Shown in pieces: positions 1,322-29,632 of a stretch of DNA of 34,301 nt. The notes beneath the pieces are model-generated. The model was not told the origin of the DNA. It saw nothing but the letters and a program-made list of their open reading frames with translations, and searched no databases. The translations under genes were made by a program, and so were the position numbers. The number at the start of each line of letters is the position of its first letter. The stretch's first letter is position 1. The stretch lies in contig JAMPFC010000024.1 of the NCBI GenBank assembly GCA_023664685.1, positions 1-34,301 of the forward strand. Reading direction: 5' to 3'. This DNA is from Roseburia sp. (GTDB lineage Bacteria > Bacillota > Clostridia > Lachnospirales > Lachnospiraceae).

Positions 1322-1969
1322 TCAAAAATATACCTTTCGTTTTCGGAAACAAATTTCTCCAATCACATGAAATGCGATGGCAAGGCCCAGATCAATCAAT
1401 AACTTCCGGACAGGTATCTGCAAAATTTCTTGTGAATCAGCAAAAATTGAGATTTTTCCTAATATATCCATTTGATCAAATTTCAAAAGAAACACACAAT
1501 AAACGACGACACCTCCTAATGCCAAACTAATGTTTCTCGTTAGTTGAATCAACAAAAATGCAATCCCATTCATAAAAAAACTTTCTGCCATCAAAAAATA
1601 AAGTAAACTTACCGGCAGCTGATATAAGTCACGCACCATAAAAAAATACAGTGAGACGCTTATCATATATAACATCTCCAAAAATAACTGGAAACCAATC
1701 ACACAATTTGTATGAAACCCCAAAAAGATCAATTCATTTCCCGGCTCCGAGATAAATCCAGAAAAAAACAGAACCGTCCACCATATGGACATCACCGAAA
1801 CGATCAGATGGAAATTAGGAAGCATATAAAAATGAATCGTATCCCAATCTCCAGCGTATAAATTACAATAATAATTACAGGAAAAACTCAAAACACAAAA
1901 ACCAATGATAACCGGAAAAAAGGCTAAAATCCATTTGTGCCGCAGGAGTAATTTCAAATAAGATTTCAT
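1322..1969 (-). CDS. ABC transporter permease, small
   Basis: This 215-aa protein is almost entirely hydrophobic, with about six predicted membrane segments (starting with WILAFFPVIIGFCVLSF) and a basic C-terminus (CFRKRKVYF). No catalytic motif is seen. It is the last gene of a three-gene ABC operon, five bases after the ATPase stop. ATG 1969 is preferred because GAGGTG lies ten bases upstream; the GTG at 1978 overlaps that site. The role as second membrane subunit is inferred from position and hydropathy. The substrate is unknown. Confidence 0.6.
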   Translation of the reverse strand: MKSYLKLLLRHKWILAFFPVIIGFCVLSFSCNYYCNLYAGDWDTIHFYMLPNFHLIVSVMSIWWTVLFFSGFISEPGNELIFLGFHTNCVIGFQLFLEMLYMISVSLYFFMVRDLYQLPVSLLYFLMAESFFMNGIAFLLIQLTRNISLALGGVVVYCVFLLKFDQMDILGKISIFADSQEILQIPVRKLLIDLGLAIAFHVIGEICFRKRKVYF

Positions 1970-1974
1970 AACTA

Positions 1975-2670
1975 TCACACCTCATTTTCATTTATAATAT
2001 TCAAGTATGCCTCCTCTAAGCCTCCCATAGAATCCTGATCTTGGCAAATTTCATGCAAGTTTCCCTCTTTGATGATCCGCCCTTTATTCATAATGATTAT
2101 CCTATCGCACACATCTTCTATATCGCCTACAATATGTGTTGAAAATAAAATAATACTATTTTTCTTTCGTTTCAATATCATGTCCTTAAAGCGCTTTCTT
2201 TCCTCTGGATCAAGACCAACTGTAGGTTCGTCAAACACGATTAGCGGCGGCGAACCTAATATCGCCTGAGCGATCCCCGCTCTTCGCTGCATTCCACCTG
2301 ACAATTTCGATATTTTTGTCTTTCTATTTTCTGTCAGATTAACCGAATCCAATGCCTGAACAATAGCTTCCTCCCGATCCGTTTTTGGTATCTTTTTTAA
2401 TTCACAAAAATAATACAACATATCATAAACTGACAATTCCCGAAACAGACCAAAATTTTGAGGCAGATACCCAATTTGCCAATTTGGAACATCCAACTGT
2501 ATCTCCCCCTGCCGGACAGGATATAACCCCAACATACAGCGGAGTAACGTCGTCTTCCCGGCACCATTCGGCCCCAGCATCCCATATGCCCCGCTCTCCA
2601 AACTCAGACAAACTTGATTTAATACTTCTTTTCTTCTGAACTTTTTCGATAAATTCGTTATCTCAACCAT
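1975..2670 (-). CDS. ABC transporter ATP-binding protein
   Basis: This is a 231-aa ABC ATPase of usual length. It has Walker A GPNGAGKTT (about residues 34-42), the Q-loop YLPQNFGLF, signature LSGGMQRR, Walker B LIVFDEPTVGLDP and the H-loop STHIVGDIE. It hydrolyses ATP on the cytoplasmic face and would drive the two membrane proteins encoded on either side. The overall pattern (CcmA/NatA-like, short, ABC-2 partner) suggests an exporter. ATG 2670 follows GAGGTGAT. The gene starts 15 bases after the upstream permease stop, so the three genes form one transcript. Confidence 0.93.
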   Translation of the reverse strand: MVEITNLSKKFRRKEVLNQVCLSLESGAYGMLGPNGAGKTTLLRCMLGLYPVRQGEIQLDVPNWQIGYLPQNFGLFRELSVYDMLYYFCELKKIPKTDREEAIVQALDSVNLTENRKTKISKLSGGMQRRAGIAQAILGSPPLIVFDEPTVGLDPEERKRFKDMILKRKKNSIILFSTHIVGDIEDVCDRIIIMNKGRIIKEGNLHEICQDQDSMGGLEEAYLNIINENEV

Positions 2671-2685
2671 CACATCACCTCATTT

Positions 2686-4638
2686 TTAAATCGATCGGAC
2701 AAACGATAACTCCGCATCGATATTTTCTTTGTAATCGTCGGAAGAAATATACTTCCAGATTTTTCTTGCTGTTTCCTTGACACCGGCCGTCTGCATCTGA
2801 TCTAAAACCGCATCATACAGTTCATCTCTTTTCGTATAACGCTCGCTACTGATAAAGTTCTTATGAGGTTCAATATTTTGAACATCAAAATTTTCTCCCG
2901 GCTCCAACTCAAAAAATATATTTTTCAAACTCTCATATGTACCTTTTCCGACTCTGTCTTTCAATATGCTGTACGCCCGACATTGCTCGCTCAATAGCAT
3001 ATAAGAATCCGTCGCATAAAAAACCTCTGTATGTGTGACAAATGTCGTACTATTGGGAATCACGATCACACAATCCGTTCCGACAAACATTTTAGAAAAA
3101 TCATCATCCAAAAAATTTTGCAGTTCCATGAGTTCTTTCTGAAAATTATTATTTTTATAAGCATTTATAAGCGAGTAACTGGACTTTTGCATCGGAAGTG
3201 CAATATACTTGCAGACCCCCTCCTCAATTTCTTCATAATTTCCATTTATTATCGTAAGATTTTCCACGTTTCCCTTATATCTTTCCTTCTCTTTCGGAAG
3301 ATTCATGATATATTTTCCTTTACCTTTAATTCCAATATCGAACTCTGCCTTCTTTTCTTTCCTCGTCGAAAACACCATATTATCTGTATCAAATATTTCA
3401 ACAAAACCACTTCTTGGATAATATGCAAAATATCCCGGCAAAAAACAGGCATTCGTGTTGGAATAAAAGATGTCTCCACTTCCAGAATAATACAGATCAA
3501 GATATTCCACAGGAGCATCCGCATAAACAGTAATGTAATCACCCTCCTGCTTAAAATCCATACGGTTTCCTTCCCCATTCCTGATATATTTAACCTTATA
3601 ACCATGATACAAAGTAAACAGATACTGTTTCTGATTCGTATTTCCCTGCAGATAAAGCCGGCACTCTGCGGATAACTTATTTGTAATCTCAAAGTTTATC
3701 TGGTAACTTTTAATTTCATAATCCTCTTCTTCCACTCTGCCTTCATGCTCCGCGTAATAAGAGGTCACATGACGTAATTCATCATCCATCCGTAACACAC
3801 TGCCCTGATTTGATCCAACTAGCAAAAGCGTCAGACAAGCTACTCCATAGAGACCTGTCATGACCATTTTCCCAATTTTCGATCGTATAAAACAAACTTT
3901 TATAAAAACAGCACTTCCCAATACGAACCAAAACAGCATACTCATTATCCGGTATCTCTCAAAAGGAAGTCCATACAGTGCATCATACGAATACGTGACG
4001 TCTTGCGGCAAAATACATAGCATACGATGGAACTTTTCCATAATTTCATGGCTAAAGGGCAGCGACTCCTGCATGATACTATAATAATCCGGAATCATAT
4101 AAAAAACCAAAAACAAGAAAATGGCATATCCCAAAAATTTTACCCTGATCCCAGAAACCAATAGTCCCATTCCCGCCGAAGCAACGGATAAAAGGAAAAC
4201 ATCAACAAATAATACTTTCACCATCTGCCACAAAACCAAAGAAGGGCATTCCAAAAAATAATATCCTATGACTGCATATGCTGCCACATTCGCAGTAAAT
4301 AGCAAAATTCCACACACCAAAACCAAAATCTGGCTAGCGTATGGAATAATGCTCCTGTTCCCCATTGCAACAAATATTTCTTTCACGGAATCAAATTTTT
4401 TCGCCGCTTCAAATGAAATAAAGAACCAACAAATAAAAAAGACAATACATATATGCCTCAGATCTCCATACAAATATATACTGTCCGTAGAAAGCGCGCC
4501 GGCAGTTTTAAATTCATCCAAAAATGCTTTGAAAATTTTGCACAGATAAATATTAGCAACGCCCAAGAGCAGCAAATAAGATAATAGTATTTGTGGTGTT
4601 TTTAAAAATAATTTTATTGATTTTCTAAAGTATTTCAT
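2686..4638 (-). CDS. ABC-2-type permease with large extracytoplasmic domain
   Basis: This is a 650-aa membrane protein. The first half has about six or seven hydrophobic segments in ABC-2 style; a further segment lies near residues 255-280. A soluble part of roughly 370 residues follows. Its beginning is beta-rich (YQINFEITNKLSAECRLYL, then LDLYYSGSGDIFY and CFLPGYFAYYPRSGF) and resembles the N-terminal domain of M1 aminopeptidases. No HEXXH zinc motif follows, so any such domain would be non-catalytic. The M1 resemblance is my impression from the pattern, not a proven homology. ATG 4638 is chosen over 4656 because GAAGG lies seven bases before it. First gene of the ABC operon; substrate unknown. 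Confidence 0.65.
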   Translation of the reverse strand: MKYFRKSIKLFLKTPQILLSYLLLLGVANIYLCKIFKAFLDEFKTAGALSTDSIYLYGDLRHICIVFFICWFFISFEAAKKFDSVKEIFVAMGNRSIIPYASQILVLVCGILLFTANVAAYAVIGYYFLECPSLVLWQMVKVLFVDVFLLSVASAGMGLLVSGIRVKFLGYAIFLFLVFYMIPDYYSIMQESLPFSHEIMEKFHRMLCILPQDVTYSYDALYGLPFERYRIMSMLFWFVLGSAVFIKVCFIRSKIGKMVMTGLYGVACLTLLLVGSNQGSVLRMDDELRHVTSYYAEHEGRVEEEDYEIKSYQINFEITNKLSAECRLYLQGNTNQKQYLFTLYHGYKVKYIRNGEGNRMDFKQEGDYITVYADAPVEYLDLYYSGSGDIFYSNTNACFLPGYFAYYPRSGFVEIFDTDNMVFSTRKEKKAEFDIGIKGKGKYIMNLPKEKERYKGNVENLTIINGNYEEIEEGVCKYIALPMQKSSYSLINAYKNNNFQKELMELQNFLDDDFSKMFVGTDCVIVIPNSTTFVTHTEVFYATDSYMLLSEQCRAYSILKDRVGKGTYESLKNIFFELEPGENFDVQNIEPHKNFISSERYTKRDELYDAVLDQMQTAGVKETARKIWKYISSDDYKENIDAELSFVRSI

Positions 4639-4678
4639 TATGTTACCTTCTTTCACACAACTATATCATAATCCTTTC

Positions 4679-4699
4679 ACTGTTTTTCGCGAAAACAGT
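4679..4699. promoter_or_regulatory. Palindrome upstream of the ABC operon
   Basis: ACTGTTTT (4679-4686) and AAAACAGT (4692-4699) form a perfect inverted repeat around TCGCG. It lies between the rdrB stop (4711) and the ABC operon start (4638). No convincing U-tract follows on the minus strand, so an operator is as likely as a terminator. Confidence 0.4.
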
Positions 4700-4710
4700 A
4701 CAAAAATTTT

Positions 4711-7263
4711 TCATCGAAAAATCTGCTCAATCCCCATTCGTCTGACATAATCTATCCATTCATATATATCTTCTAAATCATAAAGAGGTTGATTCTCATC
4801 ATTCGTTGCCTTTTTTAAAGCAAGAGCCATTAACGCATATTCATTCTCCAATAATGTATCAAAAACTCCCTGATCATCCGTATTAATTGAAACACTTAGG
4901 GACATATTCGGCTCAACTGCTTTCAATTTTCTAGAATTAAATCGAATAATCGGATGTTCTTCATATTTTTTAATCGTACCTATTAAATAATTAGATGACG
5001 GATTTGTCTCAACTCCAATACCTGTATTTACCAAATGCCGAATCATTTTATCCTGCAATTGACGTATAAGATCCATATAGGCTCGGCTAATCTTAAACTC
5101 TATAATCTCACTACCTTTCGCCCGTATTTTTTCATTAAAATGATACGCATAATATAATTCTTTATATTTTTCATTTTTCCTCAGATCATTATGTACTAGA
5201 TCATTAAACTGATATCGGTCAAACCTTTGAAGTTCTGTAACCGCAATTTTCTTTTTAAATGCTCTCATAGATAACCTATATAACTCTGGCCTATCTCCTC
5301 GCAACTTCCAACTTTGATAATACTCGTTTATTGATGGATGATGTCTATTTTCTGTATTCTCCCTAAAGATTTCTTCATACAAACTATAAAATTGATCTTT
5401 CAGTCTTGTTCTCAGCATTCCATCTATATAACACCCCCATTCATCTGCTTTGCATAGCATCCATGCAATATCATCCAACAATATTTGTTTAGATAATACT
5501 ATTTTGTAGCCTTTAAATTTATAATATTCCTCTGGAGCAATTCCCAATGCAAGAGCATGTCCAATCCTACTTCCCCTTTTTAATCCACAAAATAACAGTG
5601 CCTCGTCAATTGCACGTAAACCATCAACAATATCAAAAAAATCTTCCCCTACATGATACGTTGTATGCAGATTCCGCGTCTTACAATTCTTACTAAATCT
5701 ACTTTTCTTTTCTTCTTCACATACCACAGTAACATTCGACAAATACCGAAAAATCTGACCAAAGACCTCTGGTCTGCAGGCAATTTCACTGGAACATGCA
5801 TCTATTCCCCTGATATATCGATTAATCTCCTTACGTTTTTCTAACAACGCAACTAAACTTCTTGCTTGACGCATAGATACTTCTCGCACATTACTGTTTC
5901 TTGGAATTCCGGGGACAAAAGGCTTATCTGCTATTTTAGGGAAATGAAGTACATAAATTAATTTATTATATGTTTCATTCATTTCTTCTTTATCATTATT
6001 TTTCTCTTTATTTACAATATTTTCGTAATTTTTAAAAGCTTTCTCTAACTCAGATGAAGTTTTTTTAGGGCAAATGCGCGCTTCTAAAGAAACCATATTC
6101 TCCTTTCTAAGAGATTCATTTAATGCAAGACGTACTAATTCATCCTCATATGCTTTTTCACCTTCAATAAAATACTCTTTTCTATCCTGATACTCCAAAA
6201 AATTAGCAAAACCAACCTGCCTATTAATCTGGATGATTTCCCCACGAAAATCACCTCTAATCACTAAGTAAGCATAAAACAAATCTTTTTGTTCTTCTGA
6301 AAATCGGTCTGTTAACGTATATTTATAACAATCATATAAAAATTTACGCTCACCAGCTAGTAAGCGACATTCATTCCTGTTCTCATTTATAATACTCTTT
6401 TCCAATGCATAATCAAGAATATTCCCTTCAAGTTTTGCACCATAAAAACTCTTTGCCATTGTAACGGCATCCTGTATTTCTACTACTAATTCTTCCAATG
6501 TTGTTCCCTTATAGATTTTCGACAGCAATTCTTTTAGTTTCTTCTCCAAAAATCTATCTTTTTTCATTACTGAAAATAAGTACACCCTATATAGTGCTGC
6601 TCTTTGACACTCTGCATAAAAGCTTTCTTTTTTTACAGTATTGTCAAAACGATCCATGTGTCGTTCTTGAAGAGTTTTACGTATTTTTTTAAAATCATGC
6701 AATCGACCATCAATCAAGTTCATCAGGCAAAGCCAGTTCAATTCAAAGACTTTTGTTGATCCATTAAGATGAAAGTGATTCTCTGCAATTCCTTCTTTCA
6801 AAATATTATGAATCCTATCATTATTGCTTTTAATAATCGGCAGCCATGAAAAATATTTTGTTTCGTAACCTCTGTTCAGATCATAATTAGCTAAATATGC
6901 ACAAGTAAAAAAATCCTGACCAAGCTGAAAGGATATTTCTCGCCAACGCAACAACTGCTCAAATTCACACTTAATTTCTTCTCCATCCAAAACCAACATC
7001 CTTCGTGCCACATCTGTAATTAAGCGAAAAACACTTGGTTTTTTCCCCTGCTCATTGCACATTTGCTGTAGCATAAGTTTATAATTATTTTCTCTCTCGT
7101 CTAACGATTCATTTCCGAAAATTCCAACAGAATACCTCATATACAAGGCTTTATCGACCTTTTTATATGTATGCATTGGTTCATTTGAACCAAATCTTCT
7201 ACCAATATAATTATAAGGAATCCCTCGGAAAAGAATCTCTATATTACCCCTTTCCTTATCCAT
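4711..7263 (-). CDS. rdrB: RADAR adenosine deaminase RdrB
   Basis: This is an 850-aa divergent adenosine deaminase. The zinc and catalytic motifs are all visible: HFHLNGS at residues 163-169 (ligands H163, H165), GIDACSSE near 487, HVGE at 537-540 (H537 ligand, E540 catalytic), RIGHA with H569, and NTDDQG near 794 with D796/D797. It is far longer than housekeeping adenosine deaminases (about 340 aa), as expected for RdrB, which forms large shells and deaminates adenosine nucleotides or RNA during phage infection together with RdrA. ATG 7263 follows GGGGGA and overlaps the rdrA stop by eight bases (ATGGATAA), indicating coupled translation. The extended frame to 7323 lacks a ribosome site. The sequence is AT-rich compared with the element to the right. 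Confidence 0.9.
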   Translation of the reverse strand: MDKERGNIEILFRGIPYNYIGRRFGSNEPMHTYKKVDKALYMRYSVGIFGNESLDERENNYKLMLQQMCNEQGKKPSVFRLITDVARRMLVLDGEEIKCEFEQLLRWREISFQLGQDFFTCAYLANYDLNRGYETKYFSWLPIIKSNNDRIHNILKEGIAENHFHLNGSTKVFELNWLCLMNLIDGRLHDFKKIRKTLQERHMDRFDNTVKKESFYAECQRAALYRVYLFSVMKKDRFLEKKLKELLSKIYKGTTLEELVVEIQDAVTMAKSFYGAKLEGNILDYALEKSIINENRNECRLLAGERKFLYDCYKYTLTDRFSEEQKDLFYAYLVIRGDFRGEIIQINRQVGFANFLEYQDRKEYFIEGEKAYEDELVRLALNESLRKENMVSLEARICPKKTSSELEKAFKNYENIVNKEKNNDKEEMNETYNKLIYVLHFPKIADKPFVPGIPRNSNVREVSMRQARSLVALLEKRKEINRYIRGIDACSSEIACRPEVFGQIFRYLSNVTVVCEEEKKSRFSKNCKTRNLHTTYHVGEDFFDIVDGLRAIDEALLFCGLKRGSRIGHALALGIAPEEYYKFKGYKIVLSKQILLDDIAWMLCKADEWGCYIDGMLRTRLKDQFYSLYEEIFRENTENRHHPSINEYYQSWKLRGDRPELYRLSMRAFKKKIAVTELQRFDRYQFNDLVHNDLRKNEKYKELYYAYHFNEKIRAKGSEIIEFKISRAYMDLIRQLQDKMIRHLVNTGIGVETNPSSNYLIGTIKKYEEHPIIRFNSRKLKAVEPNMSLSVSINTDDQGVFDTLLENEYALMALALKKATNDENQPLYDLEDIYEWIDYVRRMGIEQIFR

Positions 7264-9985
7264 GAATGTTCCCCCTGCTGTTGTATTTAGACACGATTTT
7301 CTTATACTCCTCATACAATTCATCTGAAATATTTGTCGTAGGATCCACCATATAAGAATTCATAATCTTAGAATAAAATTTATGTAACTCTTCTATTTCT
7401 GATTCTAACAGTTCTTCCATATGATTTGAGTAATACGTTTGGAGATTGAGTGCTAAATTATCTATATTTATCTTTGCATTTTTCGCGCTCTTATTTCTCA
7501 AATAAGTTGACACCTCTCTTCGCGGGGTATCAGGATTACCTTTTTCTTTCAATTTTGAAAGGAACCTCTTTACTTCTTCTCCTTTTTTTGCATAATTCAT
7601 GCTCATCTGTTCATCCTGATAATTTTTCACGCTCTTTTCTACCAATAACCCATACAATTGCGCAATATCAACATCTCTCCCCTCTTCACCGCATTGTAAT
7701 TTATGTAAAGAAAGCTTGGTCTTCTCGTCAACATCTCCATATTCCCGCATAAACTTCTCAACATTTCTAAAAAAAACATTTACGACTGTTTTCGTTTTTT
7801 CTGTTTCGTCCTTGACACCGCGTTCTTTATTCTCCTTACGTTCCTGACAATATTCCTTAAATTTTAAAGCTAAATCAATATTCATCAAAATTCTTCTGAA
7901 CACTTTAATCGTATCTTTATTATATGTTTCTATAATATCAACAAATTCATCAAACTCCTTTTCAATCCCTAATGCTTCCACATTTATCTTCTCACGCAGG
8001 TTTTCTAAATTACAAAGACCTACCATATAGTTTTCCAAACTTATTTGTACATTAGGCAAAAGTGAATAATTAGAGTACACAATAGGTGTATTGTAAAATG
8101 TACAGACTGGTTGATTATTTGAAAAGGTGTTAGAAAGCAACCCCAATAATAACCATACCCATATTTTCTCTTCTCTATTTTCATCCGAAATCTTAGACAC
8201 ATAATTTTGTATTTTTCCTCCATCTGACAATAAAATACCCTCATCCGAACTAATCATTTTGGCGATAGTATTAAATGCACATATTGTCGATAGTTGAAAT
8301 CTTGAGCGGTCAATAGGTCTACCCTGCACACTTGGCAGAATATTTATAAATTTTCCTGCCCACATATATCCACCCATAAATCTTGTTATTTCTTCATTCC
8401 TTTTTTCTTCACTCATTCCGCCCCTCAATAATTGATTTAAACGAATCGTATAAAGTATATGAAATGCATATGCATATCTTTCCTCTGCATTTCCAAATAC
8501 ATTCATGTAATAATCCTCTAGCCAGTTTATAACTTTAGAAAAACTCTGGTCCTTTTCAAGAACATAATCTGTAATAGGCTTGGTAATTAATTTCTTCTCT
8601 ATTGCATCATAGAACTTGTGCAATGCAAATTCAGCCCCCTCATGTAACTTGATATAATTATTATGAATCAGTTCCTGAATCTCCTTACATTTTTCCGTAT
8701 CTAAATTTCCGGGAAGCCATTCTTTTTCATAATAACTACAAAACTTTTGAATATTTTCATAATAAATACTGTTATCTCCTTTGGGATCCTCCATCTCTCC
8801 TAAAAGAGCTATTATACTTATCATATCTCGTAAGTTATCTGGCAAAAGAAAATTTTCCTCTGACTTATTCTTTAAAAATTTCATCCCGGTTCTCAAAAAT
8901 ATACATTCTAAAACAGCTTCATTCATAGAATCTTTGATTTCACTTTTGTAAATAATTTTATCGCCTTCCCCATTGTTCTTCCCCTTGACCACATACAAAA
9001 TCCTCGCATGGAGGATTGTCTGTACTTTGGGAAGATAAATCCTTCTTGCCCTTGGAATTAATTTTGCCACATAACGTTCTGCCATATTACTTATTTCGCT
9101 AAAAACTCCCGGCTCTTGCGCCCCTATACGCAAAATCCCTTTGTAGTTTCTAAAGTTCTCTTCCTGCACACATAACCGCAGTTGCTCTACTTTAATTGCC
9201 ATCACAATTATCACATTCGGAATAATTAAATACTTTCTTATCTGCTCCGCCATTTTATAAGCATTAGAGCTACATAAATCCAAATCATCTATAGCAATCA
9301 GCAAGCTTTTATACTCTTTATCAAAATTCGAAGGACCTGACATAATTTTCAAATATAGCTCGATCAGTTTTCTTAATTCACTCTTTAATCTGGTACTTTC
9401 CCCAAGTTTGGTAAGTTTGCTGATATTGCCTTCATAATCATACTCATTATCCCGCATCTGCGCCTGATTATTAATTAATGATACATAGCGATACACTTTT
9501 TGAAACTGATCTAACAACTCTTCTCTTCTATCCACGCTAATAGACTGATTATCTGAATCATATTTTTCTCGAAATTTTCTATACAGCGTTGCAAGTACAA
9601 TATCCAACACATTATGTACATCGTCAAACGTCGAGGGATCTATAACCATAGGTTCAGAAAACAATGTTTTCTTTATATTCTCGCAATCAGAAAAAAGCAT
9701 GCTCTTTTCATCAGAACTCAAAGCATATACAGCATTAATAAAACTTATCATCGCACTACTTTTTCCTTCTCCTCGTTCCCCGCAAAAAGCAATGATATTA
9801 TTTTCAGTCTCAGTTTTAAGCCATTCCGCAGATTTCGATTTATGCTCAAGCCCAATTATATCATCAAGAATTCTGGCTGCCTTTACATACTGATCATAAA
9901 AAATATCGTTCTCAGCAATCTTCTCTCTTATATTTACCTTAAACTCTTCGCCCTTAACAATAGTTAAAATTTTCTCATTTGCCAT
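7256..9985 (-). CDS. rdrA: RADAR P-loop ATPase RdrA
   Basis: This is a 909-aa protein with a KAP/AAA-like NTPase domain at its N-terminus: Walker A GERGEGKSS at residues 69-77, Walker B LLIAIDDLD at 228-236, and YVAKLIPRARRIYLP at 305-319. The remaining 590 residues are helical and charged, with no recognised domain. In RADAR, RdrA is the ATPase that assembles with RdrB and acts in sensing infection and directing deamination. Identification rests on the ATPase motifs, the length (typical RdrA is about 900 aa) and the overlapping rdrB. ATG 9985 has AGGGGG ten bases upstream. The upstream SIR2 gene ends 129 bases away, so this pair may have its own promoter. Confidence 0.88.
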   Translation of the reverse strand: MANEKILTIVKGEEFKVNIREKIAENDIFYDQYVKAARILDDIIGLEHKSKSAEWLKTETENNIIAFCGERGEGKSSAMISFINAVYALSSDEKSMLFSDCENIKKTLFSEPMVIDPSTFDDVHNVLDIVLATLYRKFREKYDSDNQSISVDRREELLDQFQKVYRYVSLINNQAQMRDNEYDYEGNISKLTKLGESTRLKSELRKLIELYLKIMSGPSNFDKEYKSLLIAIDDLDLCSSNAYKMAEQIRKYLIIPNVIIVMAIKVEQLRLCVQEENFRNYKGILRIGAQEPGVFSEISNMAERYVAKLIPRARRIYLPKVQTILHARILYVVKGKNNGEGDKIIYKSEIKDSMNEAVLECIFLRTGMKFLKNKSEENFLLPDNLRDMISIIALLGEMEDPKGDNSIYYENIQKFCSYYEKEWLPGNLDTEKCKEIQELIHNNYIKLHEGAEFALHKFYDAIEKKLITKPITDYVLEKDQSFSKVINWLEDYYMNVFGNAEERYAYAFHILYTIRLNQLLRGGMSEEKRNEEITRFMGGYMWAGKFINILPSVQGRPIDRSRFQLSTICAFNTIAKMISSDEGILLSDGGKIQNYVSKISDENREEKIWVWLLLGLLSNTFSNNQPVCTFYNTPIVYSNYSLLPNVQISLENYMVGLCNLENLREKINVEALGIEKEFDEFVDIIETYNKDTIKVFRRILMNIDLALKFKEYCQERKENKERGVKDETEKTKTVVNVFFRNVEKFMREYGDVDEKTKLSLHKLQCGEEGRDVDIAQLYGLLVEKSVKNYQDEQMSMNYAKKGEEVKRFLSKLKEKGNPDTPRREVSTYLRNKSAKNAKINIDNLALNLQTYYSNHMEELLESEIEELHKFYSKIMNSYMVDPTTNISDELYEEYKKIVSKYNSRGNIHG

Positions 9986-10049
9986 TTTTTAGTCCCCCTG
10001 TCCGTTTCTCTCTCACTATATTTGATATAATTCGACTCTTTCGTTTTTT

Positions 10050-10055
10050 ATTATA
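10050..10055 (-). promoter_or_regulatory. Possible -10 box for rdrAB
   Basis: TATAAT on the minus strand lies 65 bases upstream of the rdrA start, in the very AT-rich gap after the SIR2 gene. No good -35 is found at 16-18 bases, so this is a weak call. Confidence 0.3.
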
Positions 10056-10114
10056 CAATACTATTATTAAAATTACTATAGATATATTAAAACATTCCTT
10101 ACTACAATTTATTA

Positions 10115-11926
10115 TCAAGCTATTCTAACGAATATATAAAAGATATACACAAATATCAAGCGTTTATAATATTTTTTCAACCCACATTCTTGAAATAATT
10201 TGCGAACAGCTTTCAAATCATTCCTAGCTTTTATAAGTGATTCAATATTCTTTTTGTCTTTGTAATCTAAAAGTAAAATAATTGCTTTATATAAAATTGT
10301 CAAAACAACACCATTTATTGAACTTACATCTGCATATGCATATAACGCAATATCTATATTCTTTATACACTCTTGTACATCTATATCAAGCAAACTTTGA
10401 CACAATGCAAGCGTTCTATATGCAGTCATAATCTGATGTATATCAATTACACAGTCATAACCTCCTTCTATAATAAGCTGAATGCTTTCTCTAGCAATTT
10501 TAATGTTTTCTGGTAATAAATTTTTATATTTTTTTCTATCACATAGCATAACACTTTTCAACTTTTCAAAAAATATATATTCCACATAACGGTTTATTTT
10601 TGTTGATACGGACCAATCTATCATTTTATTTGAAAGCAATAAACATTTAATATGTTGCGGCATCTCCTTATTGAACGAGCATACCGTTTTATAAGAATTA
10701 CCTCTAGCTACCTCATAATCACTTTTGGCTAGTTCATCGTTACCATTTATTCTTAACAAACATTTTCCTTGTCTTTTTACAATTCTATTTTGTTTCGTTA
10801 TAACTGCATTTTCAAACGAATAATAAATTTTATACCATGAATCTATATTACTACTTGTTACATTCTGTATCCATTTTTTTGTCCCTAGGATTTTCGTGAT
10901 TGACAATCCCAAACGATAACATAATCCTAGTATAAAAACATCGGAGTATTCTTTGCTATAACTTACTGCATATTCCTTAAAAGTATCCTGCCACTTACTT
11001 ATTTCCTTTTGAGGAGTCAATTTTTTCATTTGATGATAATCATTTAATGCAGAAAAAAATTCACTCGTCAAACATGGACATACCGTTTTCTCTTCAAATG
11101 GATTTAGTAAAATTTCTTCCTTCTTAGAAACTGGTTTTATCTTCGTTTCAGTACTATGTCTTACATAAACACCCTTAGTATGTTTTTCACTATAGAATGT
11201 TTTAAGAAATGGATTAACATCCAAAGAATCCAATCCGCTATATCCCATAAATATAAAAACACATTCTGTTTTTAACCAATATCGAAATATTTTTCTAAAT
11301 GACTTTGGCAAACTGTTTTTAACTGTTGTCAGGTTTGCTCCTATCGTTTCCAAGTCACTCGATATACCATGTATATGGTATATGCAACTTGACCACCTAT
11401 TCTTTGCCCTATATAAGTGCATATCCTTATTTTCATGAATAATTTGTCCCATGCCATACTTGTCCTCATACGCTTTTTTTATAAAATCTCCATAGTTAGT
11501 TGTTACAATATTAGCCCCTTTATGCAGATACTGCGCTAACAAATAATGCTCATTATTGTAACGAAATTCTTTTGATGAAAAACAATATAACCCTTGCATA
11601 ACTGATTGTTTTTTTATTTGATGATTTTCAAATTCACGAACAGTCTCTATAATTGTCTCCAAACGTGGTCTTTCATACAATTCCAATTCCTCGCCAACCA
11701 AAGATTTAATAGACCTACAGTTTTTCTCCCAGCCTTCTATTACCTTTGTTACCTTGTCACCACAAGACAACTGCAAAACAAGATCCGTAAGACCATACCC
11801 CAATGGCAAACCTGTTGGTTCTCCATGATCTATTCCAGCGCCAATCCAAAAAACAATTTTATTGGGAGGCGTCTTAGCCAAGCCATTTCTTAACTCTTCT
11901 ACTGACTTTAATCCAATTTCTTCCAC
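10115..11926 (-). CDS. SIR2-domain protein, probable defence effector
   Basis: This is a 603-aa protein with an N-terminal SIR2-like domain of about 270 residues: GAGID at 29-33, TTNYGDF at 142-148 and HIHG at 185-188. These match the NAD-binding and active-site positions of SIR2 proteins used in bacterial defence (ThsA, DSR and SIR2-HerA types), which deplete NAD+. The remaining 330 residues are basic and helical, with no recognised motif; a sensor role would fit. GTG 11926 is chosen because AAAGGTG lies eight bases upstream and because a TATAGT box at 11961-11966 makes the longer frame (GTG 11962) unlikely. The gene directly precedes rdrAB on the same strand and shares its AT-rich composition. 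Whether it works with RADAR is unknown. Confidence 0.8.
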   Translation of the reverse strand: MEEIGLKSVEELRNGLAKTPPNKIVFWIGAGIDHGEPTGLPLGYGLTDLVLQLSCGDKVTKVIEGWEKNCRSIKSLVGEELELYERPRLETIIETVREFENHQIKKQSVMQGLYCFSSKEFRYNNEHYLLAQYLHKGANIVTTNYGDFIKKAYEDKYGMGQIIHENKDMHLYRAKNRWSSCIYHIHGISSDLETIGANLTTVKNSLPKSFRKIFRYWLKTECVFIFMGYSGLDSLDVNPFLKTFYSEKHTKGVYVRHSTETKIKPVSKKEEILLNPFEEKTVCPCLTSEFFSALNDYHQMKKLTPQKEISKWQDTFKEYAVSYSKEYSDVFILGLCYRLGLSITKILGTKKWIQNVTSSNIDSWYKIYYSFENAVITKQNRIVKRQGKCLLRINGNDELAKSDYEVARGNSYKTVCSFNKEMPQHIKCLLLSNKMIDWSVSTKINRYVEYIFFEKLKSVMLCDRKKYKNLLPENIKIARESIQLIIEGGYDCVIDIHQIMTAYRTLALCQSLLDIDVQECIKNIDIALYAYADVSSINGVVLTILYKAIILLLDYKDKKNIESLIKARNDLKAVRKLFQECGLKKYYKRLIFVYIFYIFVRIA

Positions 11927-11960
11927 ATCAATCACACCTTTAGAAATTTGCAAAACAATC

Positions 11961-11966
11961 ACTATA
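11961..11966 (-). promoter_or_regulatory. Possible -10 box of the SIR2 gene
   Basis: TATAGT on the minus strand lies 35 bases upstream of GTG 11926. The -35 region is poor. Its main value is in arguing against the longer start at 11962. Confidence 0.3.
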
Positions 11967-12024
11967 CCACGATATTTTGTGCATAATTCTTTTATCTTCC
12001 CTTTAATATATCTCCTGTCGATAT

Positions 12025-12753
12025 TTATCTTGCGTCTCTGTCATTCTTCCTTTTTTCCAGTGCCTTTCTTATTATATCTTCCGCACTATCTTCTGTTATC
12101 TTTTGCTCTGTCTTTCTCTCTGCACGGAGTAAAATCTGCTGGGATGTTTCTTCCTCTTTCATCTGTTCTTCAAACAATTCCGGGAGATTTTCTGATGCCA
12201 GAGCAGTCTCCAAAAACTGTTTCGCATACTCGGAAATATCATTCCAATTTCCATATAATTCCTGTACTGCCCTGTCTATTTTTTCATAATCAAGAGGCTG
12301 TCCCTCTTTTTTCTGCTCATATAATATTCCTACCACATCAGAGAGATCCTTTTTATAAGAACGTCCCGACACTAATTTCATAGCTACCAGATACTCCGCA
12401 CGGACTGTCCGTATATGCAGCACATTGGAATATATGCGGTAATGTTTTGAATACTGCCGCAGTTTGGGAGTGTATGAATTTGTATTCTGAAAGTCTGCAT
12501 TTAGCCAGCGGTTAGGTAACTGAAATTTATCCCCGACGGCATTGATTGCCTCCTTCATAGTGGAAGATGCCGTAATTACAGCGTCAATATCATATGTCAT
12601 TTCACGGAATCCGTAGTTGGCAAGAATGGCAGCACCCCCAACTAAAATGATTTCCGCTGTCATTTTAGTCCCATTCCGTTTACGAAATTCCTTGCCAAGT
12701 TCTTTCAAATAATTCTCTAAATTGTCTTTCGTAAATGCACGGTCAATAGACAT
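12025..12753 (-). CDS. DUF6036/AbiEii-like nucleotidyltransferase, putative toxin
   Basis: This 242-aa protein has a nucleotidyltransferase core: ILVGGAAILANYGF followed by TYDIDAVI, which carries the paired Asp residues of the polymerase-beta fold, and a helical C-terminus rich in charged residues. Proteins of this type, next to an HTH gene, act as the NTP-transferring partner of AbiE/MenT-like toxin-antitoxin modules; the family assignment (DUF6036) is from pattern memory. ATG 12753 has AAGGGG nine bases upstream and lies inside the end of the XRE gene, overlapping it by 11 bases. A longer frame to 12828 has no ribosome site. Confidence 0.7.
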   Translation of the reverse strand: MSIDRAFTKDNLENYLKELGKEFRKRNGTKMTAEIILVGGAAILANYGFREMTYDIDAVITASSTMKEAINAVGDKFQLPNRWLNADFQNTNSYTPKLRQYSKHYRIYSNVLHIRTVRAEYLVAMKLVSGRSYKKDLSDVVGILYEQKKEGQPLDYEKIDRAVQELYGNWNDISEYAKQFLETALASENLPELFEEQMKEEETSQQILLRAERKTEQKITEDSAEDIIRKALEKRKNDRDAR

Positions 12754-13330
12754 TTCGGATTTCCCCTTCCACAATATTATATTCCAAAAATTCCGGTATC
12801 GCATTGTCCCAGCTTGATTTCCTTTCATCCAGTGCCGGATTCAGCTTTGCTGCCAGCATAACATCCTTCGGATAAATCGGTTCAGCCAGTTTATGGTCCC
12901 GTATATCATCATAATCCCGGCAGACCGGCAGATCATTTTCACGGCACAGATAGTCTACCATTGCAAGCAGGTAAAAACTTTCCGGGTACCATTTTCTGTC
13001 CCAGTATATCCGGATTTCATTTTCCCGCAAGATGTCAACAATAAAATCAATATCTCCTTTATCCTTTACCATGTGACAGATATTGCTCTTAAAAATTTCA
13101 AAGCTGCTCCGGTGCGGTATCTCCGGTTCATTTTTTGCATGGTTTTCCAAAAGTTCTTCCATTGTAACATGAAATACCTTCGACAGTTTATATACGGTTT
13201 CTGCGGAACATTTCCTAATATTTGACTTGCCGTTTACCAGATCAGAAAGGGTGGTATATGGCACTTTGCTTTCCTTTGCACACTGGTACACTGACAGATT
13301 TTGTGCCTTCAGCAGTTCTTTTAATACCAT
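12743..13330 (-). CDS. XRE-family regulator, putative antitoxin
   Basis: This 195-aa protein has an N-terminal Cro/C1 helix-turn-helix (residues 1-62: LSVYQCAKESKVPYTTLSDLV, then TVYKLSKVFHVTMEELL). A C-terminal region of about 125 residues (YWDRKWYPESFYLLAMVDYL) may contact the partner. ATG 13330 sits seven bases after GGGAGGTG. It is the first gene of the two-gene operon with the nucleotidyltransferase, and the promoter carries a near-perfect dyad that fits autorepression. Antitoxin function is inferred from gene order and overlap. Confidence 0.75.
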   Translation of the reverse strand: MVLKELLKAQNLSVYQCAKESKVPYTTLSDLVNGKSNIRKCSAETVYKLSKVFHVTMEELLENHAKNEPEIPHRSSFEIFKSNICHMVKDKGDIDFIVDILRENEIRIYWDRKWYPESFYLLAMVDYLCRENDLPVCRDYDDIRDHKLAEPIYPKDVMLAAKLNPALDERKSSWDNAIPEFLEYNIVEGEIRNVY

Positions 13331-13358
13331 GTCCTGCACCTCCCGGATTTTTTCTTTT

Positions 13359-13387
13359 AGTATAACGGTATTCCGTGACACTGTCAA
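13359..13387 (-). promoter_or_regulatory. Consensus promoter of the XRE/nucleotidyltransferase operon
   Basis: On the minus strand TTGACA (13382-13387) is followed after exactly 17 bases by TATACT (13359-13364). It lies 29 bases upstream of ATG 13330. Confidence 0.8.
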
Positions 13388-13391
13388 GGAA
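13371..13391. promoter_or_regulatory. Dyad operator overlapping the -35 box
   Basis: TTCCGTGACA (13371-13380), a central C, and TGTCAAGGAA (13382-13391) form an inverted repeat matching at nine of ten positions. It covers the -35 box and part of the spacer, as expected for autorepression by the XRE protein encoded just downstream. Confidence 0.65.
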
Positions 13392-13417
13392 TTACTTCAT
13401 TTGCTATCATGATATAT

Positions 13418-13765
13418 CTACCTCTCTTTCTCCGATAATATTTTCTCCGTCTTAACCATATAATCCTTATAATCGGTGATAATCTGACGCAGGGAATTTT
13501 TATGGCTGCCTTCTGTTTCAGACCATTCTTCATATATTTCATCCAGCAGATCAGGCGATTTCAACAAAGCTTTTGCTGCCTGCGGTGAATAATCCGGGTG
13601 GGAAAAACATCCTGCAATTTCCTCTTTTACCGCAATCTGGTATGCTGCATCATAAATTTCACATGATGTTCTGGTCTGCATTTCTCTCCTGAAAGAAAAT
13701 AATTCCTGCTGCACCTTATCAGCCAGCCTCTGGTTAAGGGATTTTTTATAGTCCTGATAATTCAT
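13418..13765 (-). CDS. DUF3848-like protein
   Basis: This 115-aa soluble, charged, helical protein (KVQQELFSFRREM, then EIYDAAYQIAVKEEI) resembles DUF3848 proteins found beside large helicase/methylase genes on Clostridia elements. Function unknown. ATG 13765 has GGAGG nine bases upstream; the upstream in-frame ATG at 13774 is too close to that site. It follows a terminator-like hairpin after the 233-aa gene and precedes the XRE promoter. Confidence 0.6.
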   Translation of the reverse strand: MNYQDYKKSLNQRLADKVQQELFSFRREMQTRTSCEIYDAAYQIAVKEEIAGCFSHPDYSPQAAKALLKSPDLLDEIYEEWSETEGSHKNSLRQIITDYKDYMVKTEKILSEKER

Positions 13766-13784
13766 TAAAACCATCCTCCTGTCA

Positions 13785-13828
13785 AAAAACAAGCCGGTGG
13801 ATTACTGTATAACAGTTTTCCTCCGGCT
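13785..13828 (-). terminator. Hairpin terminator after the 233-aa module gene
   Basis: Read on the minus strand, AGCCGG-a-GGA pairs with TCC-a-CCGGCT around a 17-base loop that itself contains ACTG/CAGT, followed by TTGTTTTTT. It begins nine bases after the stop at 13837. Its leading flank ACATAGCC recurs at the hairpins near parA. Confidence 0.6.
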
Positions 13829-13836
13829 ATGTACCA

Positions 13837-14538
13837 TCAACAAAACAACTCATTAAAATATCTCAGGAAATCTTCTTGCCCTATCCTGTACAATTCCAAC
13901 CCCCTGTATCTGTCCATGTTGAGCTGCAATGAAAAATATTCTTCAAATGCCTTTTGTTCTTCTACAGAAAGGGTGAGCTGGTTTTCTGCCGGATGTCCTT
14001 CAAGCAGTTTCAAAAGGTTCGGATGCTTTTGTAAAATCTCCTTCCCGTATTGTTCTAATCTCTGGTATTCCTCATTCTTCTTCAGCTTTTCTGCCTGAAT
14101 GATGTCCAGCCTCTCGATAAAATCATCCAGCCATCCCGGTAAATCCCTCCTGCCCTGCCGCATTTTACCATCCCCTGCCCTGCCACATTTATGTATATGC
14201 TTTCCGTTTGTAGTGCAGCGTTTCCGCTCTGCCAGTTCATTCTGGTATCTCTGTGCATGGACGTGTCCGAAACGGTAATATTCCCGCTTTTCTGCCGCCT
14301 CCTTTTTCTGCTGTATCTTCAGGTAATGCAGGACTGCCCCGTGTTCTTCCTCCGTTAAGGACACTTCTCCCCTGCCCTCTAAAAACCCGGCAATGCAGGG
14401 GAATTTCTTTTCATATTCACTCTGCTCCTTCTGCCATTTCCGGTAATATTCCTGCCTGCCCAGCCATTCCACCGTCCCGCTATCCACGTCATCAATCGCC
14501 ATGTCAAACAGAAAATCACCGCCATATTCTTCACTCAT
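13837..14538 (-). CDS. Two-module helical protein, unknown function
   Basis: This 233-aa protein holds two diverged copies of one module: residues 28-105 (WLGRQEYYRKWQ ... SLTEEEHGAVLHYL ... EYYRFGHVHAQRY) and about 145-233 (EYQRLEQYGKEIL ... TLSVEEQKAFEEYF ... ELYRIGQEDFLRYF). A basic, Cys/His-containing linker (KRCTTNGKHIHKCGRAGDG) joins them. The same module occurs once in each of the next two upstream genes. It looks like short acidic-helical families of Lachnospiraceae (DUF6809-like), which is a weak assignment. ATG 14538 follows GGAGGA. Seventeen bases separate it from the neighbouring gene. Confidence 0.6.
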   Translation of the reverse strand: MSEEYGGDFLFDMAIDDVDSGTVEWLGRQEYYRKWQKEQSEYEKKFPCIAGFLEGRGEVSLTEEEHGAVLHYLKIQQKKEAAEKREYYRFGHVHAQRYQNELAERKRCTTNGKHIHKCGRAGDGKMRQGRRDLPGWLDDFIERLDIIQAEKLKKNEEYQRLEQYGKEILQKHPNLLKLLEGHPAENQLTLSVEEQKAFEEYFSLQLNMDRYRGLELYRIGQEDFLRYFNELFC

Positions 14539-24309: not shown

Positions 24310-25107
24310 TCACGGTGCTTCCTCCCTCTCTTCTGCTGCCACCACTAACAAACGTGCATTCCGCCCCGCCCAGCTCCGGCAAGTGGAGAGGGTAAGGAAC
24401 TGGTACCTTCGGAAGAACTCCTCTGCGGTCAGGGATTCCATGCTCTCCCGTACTGCATCTCCCAGTTCCGTACGGTACAGGCTGCGGGACAGGATGGTTC
24501 TGACATAGCTGCGGTATTCTTCCCAGTTCCCCACGTCGGTAAAGGAATAGACAGAAGATGAGGTATCCGCATGCATGACCGATACAACCTGATAGCTCCG
24601 CCTTTCCCCTCCTGCCCGGAATGTTATCTCCGGGTGTTTCCTGTAATACTCCTCCTGCCCGTAGGCATGGAGCGCACCAAACATCCTTCCTCCATTGATG
24701 TTGTGTCCGTAAATGATGCAGTTGTCACTGTCCAATGTGCAGCGGGCATCCAAAAACGGGGTTCCATAAAAACTGTAATTCCCATCAAAATCCCGGTGCA
24801 GATAATACTCACTGTCTCCTTTTCTCTGCATGACAGGATAGGAAATGCTGCTATCCTTTATCCTAAGCCACCCGATCCAGTCCGGATTGTCTGCCTTTTT
24901 TAGAACAATGGAAGGAATGGGGTTATTTTCCCATTCCTCCAGTTCCCGGAACCGGTCCTCTTTCTCTGCATCCTCCCGGCAGTAATGATAAGCCGCATAC
25001 GCCGCCACTATAAGAGACAACAAAAAAAAGAGGCACATTGTCCTCTTCATCTGTTTTTTCATCTTCTGCCTTTTCCCTTTCTGTTTCTCCCGTTTCCTCA
25101 TCTGCAT
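24310..25107 (-). CDS. Class B sortase
   Basis: This 265-aa membrane-anchored transpeptidase has a basic start, one N-terminal membrane segment (residues 24-40), then the class B core: NPDWIGWLRI at 74-83, YPVMQ, YLHRDFDG, catalytic IIYGHN (H135), LSTC (C243) and RNARLLVVA (R252). It cleaves a sorting signal and attaches the protein to the cell wall or to another pilin subunit. Its frame overlaps the end of the adhesin gene by ten bases, so the upstream VPQTG protein is its evident substrate. Start choice among several Met codons in the basic leader is uncertain. Confidence 0.9.
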   Translation of the reverse strand: MQMRKREKQKGKRQKMKKQMKRTMCLFFLLSLIVAAYAAYHYCREDAEKEDRFRELEEWENNPIPSIVLKKADNPDWIGWLRIKDSSISYPVMQRKGDSEYYLHRDFDGNYSFYGTPFLDARCTLDSDNCIIYGHNINGGRMFGALHAYGQEEYYRKHPEITFRAGGERRSYQVVSVMHADTSSSVYSFTDVGNWEEYRSYVRTILSRSLYRTELGDAVRESMESLTAEEFFRRYQFLTLSTCRSWAGRNARLLVVAAEEREEAP

Positions 25108-28100
25108 GCTTTTTTCTTACGGTACAAAACAAGACCGGTGCCTCCTAACACAAGCAGAAGAAAAAACGCTATGGCAGCCGGTGTCGTCCCTCCGGTCTGG
25201 GGCACTTTCGGTTTTGGCGTCTTTTTGTCCATTACCGACACCTTCTGTATCTTGCCTGTGTCCTTTACCGTATATTTTACCGGTTCTGCCAGCTTGTACC
25301 CCTCTGGAGCCTCCACTTCTTTAAAAGTATAAGTTTCGCCAACTGCCAGTTTTCCAGTAATGTCATAGCCCTCTTCTTTCGACGTAAAATGAAATACCTT
25401 GTTTCCCTTACTGTCATACACCTCAAATTTTGCCCCGCGGAGTCCCTGTCCGGTATCCTCTGCCAGTTTGATAAGACGGATCTTTGTTGTTTCATCCTTC
25501 ATGCCGACGCTCTGGATCTCCCCGGTGTCCCTGACGGTAAATTCAATGCTGTCCGCTGTCACATAGCCATCCGCCGGTCTTTTCTCCATCAGCACATACG
25601 TCTTTCCGGCAACAAACTTCTGCTCAACCAGATGCTTTTTATCCGTGGATGTCCACGCATCGACCACGTTACCGCTCTCCTTTTCCCTGATTTCAAGTTC
25701 GCAGCCGGGAACTTCCCCGGAACCCGTGATCTCTGTCTTGGAGATTCCCACTTTCGTTGTGTCGTCCATCATACGGACGGTATTGTCTGGCTGACGCTTC
25801 ATGTTCGTTCCGTCGGACACCGCCGCAAGCGTCTGCCCGTTCTCTCCCTCCACCAGCTGAAAACAAATACTGTCCGCCGTCACAAAACCGTCTGCCGGTC
25901 TGGTCTCTGTCAGCGTATAGTCGGTATCATGGAGCAGTCCTTTTATCTGCATGGCACCCTTTTCATCCAAGCGGGCATCCACATGGCGGTATCCCATGTC
26001 CTCCAGTCTGTCATTTACCGTGATGCTGCCCGCATTTCCGGAAATCCATTTTACAATGACATTTCCCCCGGCATCCGCAACCTGCATTTCGCAGCCTGAC
26101 AGTTCCTCAGTGTTCGCCACAGATGTCTTGCTGACCGTGGTTACTGTCTGCGTGTTCTCCGCATGCACATCGGCGGCAGCCACTTCCGTATCTCGGTCCT
26201 GATACTGTAAGTGTACGGAATATTCCGTTTTGTCATCCAGATAATAGCTGGCGGATACAGACAATTCCTTCAGGTAATAGTCCCCGGAGTTCAGGGCGGC
26301 TTCCAGCTCTTCCCCTTCTGTACCGTCAGGTTCGCCAGTTTCCCCGTCTTCCTGTGTCCCACCGGTTTTCCCGGTATCCTCTGCCTCTTCCAGTACATCC
26401 GTTTTCTCCGGCTCCCCGGACATACCGGTCTTTTCCATCCCGGCTGGTTCCTCGGTTCCGCCCGTCTCCGCCGCAGGCACATAGCCTTCGCTCATCAGCG
26501 GGAAGCCAATGTCATACACCGCTTTTCCCTCTGCATCAGTAACGGCTGTACCTAACATCGTTCCGGCATCCACGATCTTCTCCCCGTCCACGTTATAAAT
26601 GTTGTGCCGAGTAAAAATTCCAAACTCTGCCCCTTCTACCGCCTGTTTTGTCTCCGCATCCGTCTTGGACAGGGACACCCTCGTTTTTACCCTTTTGTTC
26701 TCCACACGCAGCACGCCGCTTTCATCTGTTGCATCTGTGGCGTTCAGGACATATTCCCTGTCTTTGTTCTCCCAGTTAAATTCCACATCCCACTCTTTGT
26801 CCGGGAGTACATAGCCATACGGCGTGTCCTTTTCCTTTATGCAATATTTTCCCAGAGGAAGGTTTACTGTTACTGTCCCATCCTCGTCCACGTCATACCC
26901 CGTGATGTTCCGGCATTCCTTTTCAAACTCTGCTCCCTCTCCCGTAGTGACAGTGGCTGCCAGTTCACCCTTTTCATACCAGTGCGTTCCCTGATTATCC
27001 TGCGTCACGATGTCCTCAGCCGCATAGATCTCAAACTCTGCCCCTTTGAGGAAACGATTCTCGTAGACAAACCTTCCATCCTCAAACCCAGCCAGCATTT
27101 CCCCGGTCTTGTAGATTTTGAGTTTTCCATACGTCTCCGCATTCGTGTACTCTGCGGTAACGACAGAATGGGTATAACCGTCCTCATCTGTGAAACTCTC
27201 ATAATTTCCTGCCCCGCTATTGACCGATACCTCAATATATTTCTCCGTGATGTGGAGTCCGCTTGCCGCATCCGTCTCATAAATCCGGTAGGTCCCGGAT
27301 TTCAGCTCCTTTACGGTCATGATCTCCCCGGATTCATCCGTAACAAACAAGCTGATCTTTTCCTGCCGGTTCCCGTTACTGTAGGTCTGCTCCACCAGTT
27401 TTTCCCCATTATCCGTTACCCGGTAGATCTGATAAGCAGTCCCCGGCTTTAATACGGTTTTTTCCGTATTCCCATCCTTTTTCACAATCCGCAGGTATGC
27501 CTTGAAGATTAAGTTGTCCATCGCATACTCATAAATCTGCCCGTCCTCCCGTATTGTTACTGGAAAATCATCGACACGCATGACGTCCCTTCCCCCGGTG
27601 TCCACCTGATGGACGGTATAGTCTCCGTAATACAGGTTTCCGGAAATGCCGTATCCTTTCTTATCAGTCCGGATCACTGCCCGCTCGTACTCATCGCAGG
27701 CATCGTAGCTCTTCTTTCTGGTAAGGTAAACCTGAAACGTGGTATCTGCCTCATAATCCAAAAGCCCGGTCTGTCCCTCTGATACATACTTCCGGATCTC
27801 CACCCTGCCAAGAATCGGCTTATTTCCGTACTCCTTTGTGGCAAGGTGGTCTGTGTACTCTGCGGTTACCCCGGATGCGTCCACCGCAATCGGCAGCACG
27901 TCATTGGACAGTGTATAACCAACCGGCGCTTTGGTTTCTTTCAGATAATAAGTGCTGCCGCTGCGCAGATAGTCTGTTGTCAGTTTCCCGTCCCTCACAG
28001 TATAGGTTCCCGACGTCACTGCCGAGCCATTCTCACTGTAAACAGTTGCCGGACTAGTGCAGGAAACATCTGCATACAACTGGAACTCAGCACCATTCAG

Positions 28101-29447: not shown

Positions 29448-29471
29448 AAATAGATTTCCTTTCTTTTTTGA

Positions 29472-29500
29472 AATATAAACAAGTGTTTCCATTGTGTCAT
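29472..29500 (-). promoter_or_regulatory. Promoter of the adhesin-sortase operon
   Basis: Read on the minus strand, ATGACA (29495-29500) is followed after 17 bases by TATATT (29472-29477), 25 bases before ATG 29447. It lies after the terminator of the CAP gene. Confidence 0.55.
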
Positions 29501-29565
29501 GTCCCCGTGGCGGAGGACCCCGCAGGCAAAGTTTCATCTCTTCTCCCTTCATAAATTTCTGCACG

Positions 29566-29604
29566 AAAAAAAGCCCTTTCAGATTTCTGTACCCAAAAGG
29601 ACTT
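29566..29604 (-). terminator. Terminator of the CAP-domain gene
   Basis: Read on the minus strand, AAGTCCTTT pairs with AAAGGGCTT (one G-U pair) and runs into seven T. It lies 29 bases after the CAP-gene stop and separates it from the adhesin operon. Confidence 0.75.
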
Positions 29605-29632
29605 TTCAATCCGTATTTACTTGTTTCCGCCG

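Follow-up and report, generated by a model that had tools for sequence, protein, structure and literature searches.

A SIR2-domain gene beside a divergent RADAR pair in an AT-rich island, probably a stand-alone defence gene, and a HAM1-SIR2 fusion in a distant RADAR operon

The window, i.e. the whole stretch of 34,301 nucleotides analysed here, represents one entire contig (C48) of a draft Roseburia genome. In order of transcription, its minus strand encodes a DUF3848 protein, a helix-turn-helix (HTH_3/HigA-like) regulator (12743..13387), a DUF6036 nucleotidyltransferase-like protein (12025..12828), a SIR2-domain protein of 603 amino acids (10115..11926; assigned from its ORF and Pfam SIR2_2), RdrA (7256..9985, 909 aa), RdrB (ORF at 4711..7323, 870 aa) and a three-gene ABC-exporter-like cluster (1322..4656). 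The order and spacing on which the original prediction was built were confirmed: the SIR2 gene lies 129 bp ahead of rdrA on the same strand, followed by rdrB. The 9986..10114 interval, which separates the stop codon of SIR2 from the start of rdrA at position 9985, is AT-rich and contains the Shine-Dalgarno sequence GGGGGA 5' of rdrA; a terminator-like site was sought in these 129 bp and not detected. The proposed common location of SIR2 and RADAR in one AT-rich island likewise holds, with GC contents of 0.31, 0.33 and 0.33 for SIR2, rdrA and rdrB, respectively, versus 0.46–0.54 per kb between positions 14 and 33 kb.

The DUF6036 gene is located 98 bp upstream of the SIR2 start and overlaps the regulator gene; both together (12025–13387) probably constitute a toxin-antitoxin module beside the SIR2 gene. 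No homologue of the DUF6036 gene was found in the available flanks of SIR2 homologues. The cluster 3' of rdrB codes for a 656-aa membrane-like protein, an ABC ATPase and a 218-aa membrane-like protein (membrane nature judged by eye) and probably represents an ABC exporter that is not part of RADAR. The two membrane-like proteins yielded no tblastn match at 1e-4 in the RADAR loci searched, and the downstream ABC genes were rejected as RADAR components; the ATPase query matched generic-looking ABC genes in three loci (L005, L021, L048). Between 15.5 and 33 kb, a Pfam scan revealed a 2513-aa methylase/helicase protein, a sortase, a SpaA-type protein, ParA and ParB, which give this stretch the appearance of a mobile element.

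The N-terminal portion of the NCBIfam RdrA model aligns with RdrA (residues 47–355, 9.9e-14, 50.7 bits, cut-off 600), which carries GERGEGKS as its Walker A motif (residue 69) and matched neither PADLOC RdrA nor any PDB chain. An RdrA with 51 % identity adjoins rdrB in another locus (L015). RdrB is matched by the models of NCBIfam (7.5e-55, 186.8 bits, cut-off 800) and PADLOC (8.9e-33) and by the solved structure 8fnv (5.8e-29). Its active-site motifs HxH, HVGE and DD align with those of solved RdrB and are intact as HFH (183), HVGE (557) and TDD (815). Since alignments with homologues begin at about Met21 of the rdrB ORF, translation probably starts near position 7263. Both proteins score below the NCBIfam cut-offs and the window RADAR is therefore divergent, but the pair, as the original prediction had it, is complete with intact RdrA and RdrB motifs and is predicted to convert (d)ATP to (d)ITP.

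The ORF of the SIR2 protein is open from a GTG at 11962 to the stop at 10115 on the minus strand. A second GTG at 11926, preceded by AAAGGTG, is the likely start and yields the 603-aa protein; residue numbers used here count from 11962 (P0001), 12 higher than in the 603-aa numbering. The signature motifs named in the original prediction, GAGID, TTNYGDF and HIHG, were verified (GAGI at 41, TTNYGDF at 154, HIHG at 196) together with GYSxxD at 240, and Pfam SIR2_2 matches above its cut-off (39.3 bits, 8.4e-10; cut-off 24.5 bits). The NADase-type SIR2 domain occupies about the first 290 residues, followed by a C-terminal region of some 310 residues, for which no family was found in Pfam or NCBIfam (E≤0.1) or in PADLOC (E≤0.001). 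SIR2_2 matches all seven aligned family members, and G41, G43, N156, H198, G199, G240, Y241 and D245 are invariant among them. TPR_12 was detected in three of these seven relatives at E≤1 (best 2.3e-6), whereas TPR models did not match the window protein itself. As such models match some relatives without matching this protein, a TPR-like sensor is something we only infer. In profile searches of the PDB, the SIR2 part of the family retrieved 7uxt (1.4e-7), FAM118B (5.1e-7), KomC (8.7e-6), 8in8 (5.8e-5) and ThsA (2.9e-4), while a second profile gave weaker values (ThsA 0.036). FAM118B is a vertebrate protein. A further SIR2_2 match of the window's own genome locates on another contig, within a 1162-aa open frame (G000:C61:16940-17254).

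A role outside defence, as a housekeeping or regulatory sirtuin or as an inactive gene, might be suggested by the YGD that follows TTN, unlike the Y/F-D of most aligned relatives, and by an NADase activity that is only predicted. The intact frame, the conservation of catalytic residues in 7 of 7 members and the presence of two phage-defence proteins, KomC and ThsA, among the profile matches speak against such a role and render it very unlikely.

DSR1/DSR2-type sirtuins resemble the window protein in combining an N-terminal SIR2 domain and conserved catalytic Asn and His residues with a long C-terminal region. DSR2, however, comprises about 1000 aa, and no sequence of this length occurs among the 13 from the PDB that the window SIR2 family profile matched at E≤10. 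In passages of the literature, the NADase activity of DSR2 is described to require N133 and H171, to which we read N156 and H198 of the window protein to correspond, and its C-terminal region to sense phage tail-tube protein (PMC10981675). KomC (PDB 8zsf) shares the SIR2 domain but has only 264 aa and a HAM1 partner. Thoeris ThsA (6lhx) likewise shares the SIR2 domain; its C-terminus is of the SLOG/STALD or macro type. Assignment of the window protein to ThsA was rejected: PADLOC ThsA covers the SIR2 part only (1.5e-4, residues 113–242), and the 19 scanned ORFs of the window contain no match to a STALD, SLOG or macro C-terminal domain or to a TIR (ThsB) partner. The 587-aa 8in8 (‘Sir2 superfamily protein’) is similar in SIR2 domain and length and is presumably the SIR2 subunit of a short-Argonaute system; no Argonaute-type match was present among the 19 ORFs scanned with Pfam, a set that leaves aside the 1503-aa ORF at 25098–29609 and small ORFs. 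RADAR variants are known with SLATT- or Csx27-like accessories, an initial statement that agrees with passages of PMC11676413. The window pair is instead preceded by a SIR2 gene, and neither SLATT nor Csx27 was matched among the scanned window genes.

Homologues of the window SIR2 were identified in nine distinct loci (L004, L005, L023, L025 identical to L029, L026, L027, L028, L030 and L031), three of them from the family and order samples, one from a phage record and five from a scan of genome contigs that returned six, including one duplicate. RdrA or RdrB was found in the available flanks of none of the nine; the flanks are short for four homologues, of which three are encoded on contigs below 9 kb and the fourth on a record of 9.6 kb. 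Eight genomes harbouring SIR2 homologues were also searched for RdrB, without positive control, and gave no match either. Homologues occurring mostly without RADAR, the distribution which the original prediction had itself set against a partnership, are hence what this sample contains. According to Pfam, the neighbours vary and include a ThsA-macro-domain protein (L004), a UvrD helicase (L027) and peptide-synthetase-type genes (L028). Searches of plasmids with the window SIR2, and of viral contigs with SIR2, RdrB and KomBC queries, returned nothing useful. In L004 (9460-12091), the ThsA-macro-domain gene follows the SIR2 homologue after 10 bp, possibly as a split Thoeris-like effector. A 6.9-kb contig carries two convergent SIR2 genes of the window family (L026:626-5478), the second of which overlaps a 484-aa gene without Pfam match.

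RADAR relatives were collected from a 299-genome family sample (RdrA query, eight other genomes), a 392-genome order sample (RdrB query, eight others) and a 291-genome class sample (two others). One genome (G028) was found twice, leaving 17 other RADAR genomes, to which six plasmid loci (from seven plasmid hits) were added to give 23 other loci. The place before rdrA is visible in 22 of these, since L043 ends inside rdrA, and in none was a SIR2 gene found there. The genome loci were searched with Pfam SIR2_2. For the plasmid loci, a narrower SIR2 profile and the HAM1 and SIR2 sequences of L048 served as queries, supplemented by the annotation of the records and by Pfam scans covering some of the neighbouring genes. 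The narrow profile, made from five window-like sequences, detected no SIR2 in the 23 other loci at E≤1; it missed the single SIR2 at RADAR, in L048, that was revealed by the broader SIR2_2 search of the 17 genomes. Above its cut-off, SIR2_2 matched nine times in these 17 genomes and twice in the window's genome, one of the two being the gene under study. RdrB was restricted to the window itself among 39 genomes of its genus, and searches of phages with RdrB, and of E. coli genomes with RADAR DNA from Aliivibrio as query, gave no match of use.

The four closest RADAR relatives (RdrB 66, 60, 58 and 47 % identical) carry other genes before rdrA, namely those for a MORN-repeat protein (L015), a DUF6088 protein (L042), an AAA_14/DUF4143 protein (L016, about 500 bp from rdrA with a short ORF in between) and an ABC2 transporter (L051). 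The MORN-repeat protein of the closest relative found (L015:10772-12580) comprises 602 aa with 13 matched repeats and is encoded immediately 5' of rdrA. In six more distant loci (L017–L022), and weakly in a seventh (L046), a TPR protein family occupies this place, and a SLATT gene does so in one locus. The TPR genes of L017–L022 (e.g., L018:7042-8418 and L021:10278-11894), loci of the same family, lie –32 to 119 bp from rdrA, and their products are candidate RADAR accessories. The N-terminal pattern IxH....EY..FFRLxGIFVxE of this family appears vaguely TIR-like to the eye, a putative assignment. That the C-terminal half of the window SIR2 is a version of this rdrA-adjacent TPR protein was rejected by profile comparison (probability 0.2 %).

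RADAR-SIR2 as a fixed, conserved system accordingly fails for the window SIR2 family in this sample. The original prediction had offered two readings: a stand-alone defence gene, which fits better, and a new NAD-depleting partner of RADAR, which receives no support from conservation among the four closest RADAR relatives, though a different SIR2 gene is present in L048. The variation in gene content before rdrA among related loci would also be in line with a back-up (guard) gene, which senses a phage counter-attack on RADAR or complements its phage range and is co-selected with it without biochemical coupling. Such a gene entails the same expectation as plain co-location, and with no direct sign of it observed, it is regarded as quite unlikely.

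Linkage within the window was assessed from promoters, composition and placement. Promoter-like sites over 4500–14000 numbered 45 versus 41.8 in shuffles (sd 6.6), i.e. without excess, and alignment of four regions upstream of rdrA disclosed no usable conservation of a promoter. SIR2 and RADAR are alike in base composition; this is weak evidence, since the unrelated AAA_14 gene before rdrA of L016 is equally close (0.347 vs 0.343). In codon use, the 656-aa gene of the window is closer to rdrA than SIR2 is. Under uniform placement, a model that ignores clustering of defence genes, the number of SIR2_2 genes expected at most 1 kb away from RADAR is 0.0013 for this genome and 0.0045 for the 17 other genomes, where one was seen. 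Because the SIR2 gene is close to RADAR and on the same strand, a functional link is kept open.

The one SIR2 gene located behind rdrB among the 17 other genomes (Pfam SIR2_2 search) belongs to genome G495. Its RADAR operon (L048:4481-11989; G495:C20) consists of rdrA (8672-11989), rdrB (5967-8657) and a gene for a 488-aa HAM1-SIR2 fusion, which starts 19 bp past rdrB after the stretch AGAGGAAAG. The first part of the fusion matches HAM1 (Pfam, 1.9e-36) and the last part SIR2 (6.3e-26); among solved structures, KomC (1.6e-52) and KomB (3.2e-37) are matched. An EHT motif is common to the fusion and KomB, at a position where we take ITP-cleaving HAM1 enzymes to possess acidic residues. In the Kongming system, as passages of PMC12948488 describe it, dITP bound by KomB activates the SIR2 protein KomC and NAD+ is depleted, and ITP and dITP accumulate upon infection in RADAR according to passages of PMC9994260. 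It is natural to read L048 as a RADAR operon that itself encodes the sensor for what it produces, the fusion probably representing an inosine-nucleotide-triggered NADase coupled to RADAR. The evidence comes from a single locus in one 73 %-complete genome. RdrB of L048 is 24 % identical to that of the window, and a search of 24 genomes of its family for RdrB of this type retrieved only itself. The nearest plasmid relative of this RADAR, from Cetobacterium (35 %), lacks the fusion, and among 219 genomes of the phylum the fusion found one match, restricted to the SIR2 part and without RdrA or RdrB hit within 16 kb. Many Pantoea plasmids carry separate HAM1-like and SIR2 genes resembling KomB and KomC (L060:7007-8358, L061:4995-6346); in the two regions read, no RdrA- or RdrB-like ORF was present near the pair.

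By analogy to Kongming KomBC, the window SIR2 could be an effector coupled to RADAR: RdrA and RdrB would turn (d)ATP into (d)ITP on infection, and the C-terminal part of SIR2 would read inosine nucleotides or the RADAR assembly and deplete NAD+. The build-up of ITP and dITP, the activation of KomC by dITP-bound KomB, the gene order of the G495 operon and the proximity, shared strand and similar base composition of SIR2 and RADAR in the window all point in this direction. On the other side, a phmmer search with the HAM1 domain of L048 detected no HAM1-like ORF in the window (ORFs of at least 80 aa, E<10), the four closest RADAR relatives have no SIR2 before rdrA, and the SIR2 homologues lack RADAR in their available flanks. 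Moreover, there is one case only of the window SIR2 family beside RADAR and one only of the KomBC type, and for RADAR of E. coli and C. rodentium, passages of PMC9994260 describe two proteins that protect unaided and a model of nucleotide-pool poisoning. Lacking both a HAM1 part and a HAM1 neighbour, the window SIR2 is not a Kongming effector, and its candidacy as KomC was dismissed. With no HAM1 part in the SIR2 protein, a wiring similar to that of L048 may exist in the window but is rather unlikely.

The explanation favoured here, with a probability of about 0.62, is that the window gene codes for an NADase of the SIR2 type that works on its own and bears a sensor at its C-terminus, located beside an independent, complete RADAR in a defence island. 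Its helical, possibly TPR-like C-terminal part would respond to a product of the phage or to a change that infection brings about, and would release the N-terminal SIR2 domain to hydrolyze NAD+, the loss of which would halt the infected cell. RADAR would act as an independent neighbour in the AT-rich defence island, which is carried by a probable mobile element. From the sequence we infer all four elements, namely NADase activity, C-terminal sensing, abortive infection and independence from RADAR. Independence is opposed by the shared strand, the 129-bp gap free of terminators and the similar base composition, by the SIR2 effector in one other RADAR operon (L048) and by plausible accessory genes (TPR family, SLATT) before rdrA elsewhere.

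A broader and rather unlikely view would regard RADAR as a signal-producing enzyme whose (d)ITP is read by SIR2 effectors, i.e. by the KomB-KomC fusion in G495 and, in the window, by a HAM1-less SIR2 whose C-terminal part has itself evolved to recognize inosine nucleotides or the RADAR complex. If true, RADAR and Kongming would represent variants of a single modular pathway, with a deaminase supplying an inosine nucleotide and a SIR2 enzyme consuming NAD+. The 2023 RADAR structure paper, in the passages available, proposed nucleotide-pool poisoning and left open the route from ITP/dITP to abortive infection (PMC9994260). Should SIR2 effectors read the product of RADAR, this route would become directly testable, and RADAR and Kongming would be combinable parts. 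Listings and passages of the open-access literature disclosed no description of RADAR operons that include a gene for SIR2 or HAM1-SIR2. Since the L048 operon carries a predicted inosine-nucleotide sensor fused to SIR2, a direct link between SIR2 and RADAR can now be tested; the G495 operon offers the clean test case, and the window raises the question of a second origin of this link without HAM1. If independent of RADAR, the window SIR2 would still belong to a SIR2 family whose C-terminal half is unmatched in Pfam, NCBIfam and PADLOC scans. On a Rhizobium plasmid, a gene annotated as adenylosuccinate synthetase, an IMP-acting enzyme, follows a RADAR-like pair after about 900 bp (L057:9043-10644) and thereby neighbours a system of the kind that produces inosine nucleotides.
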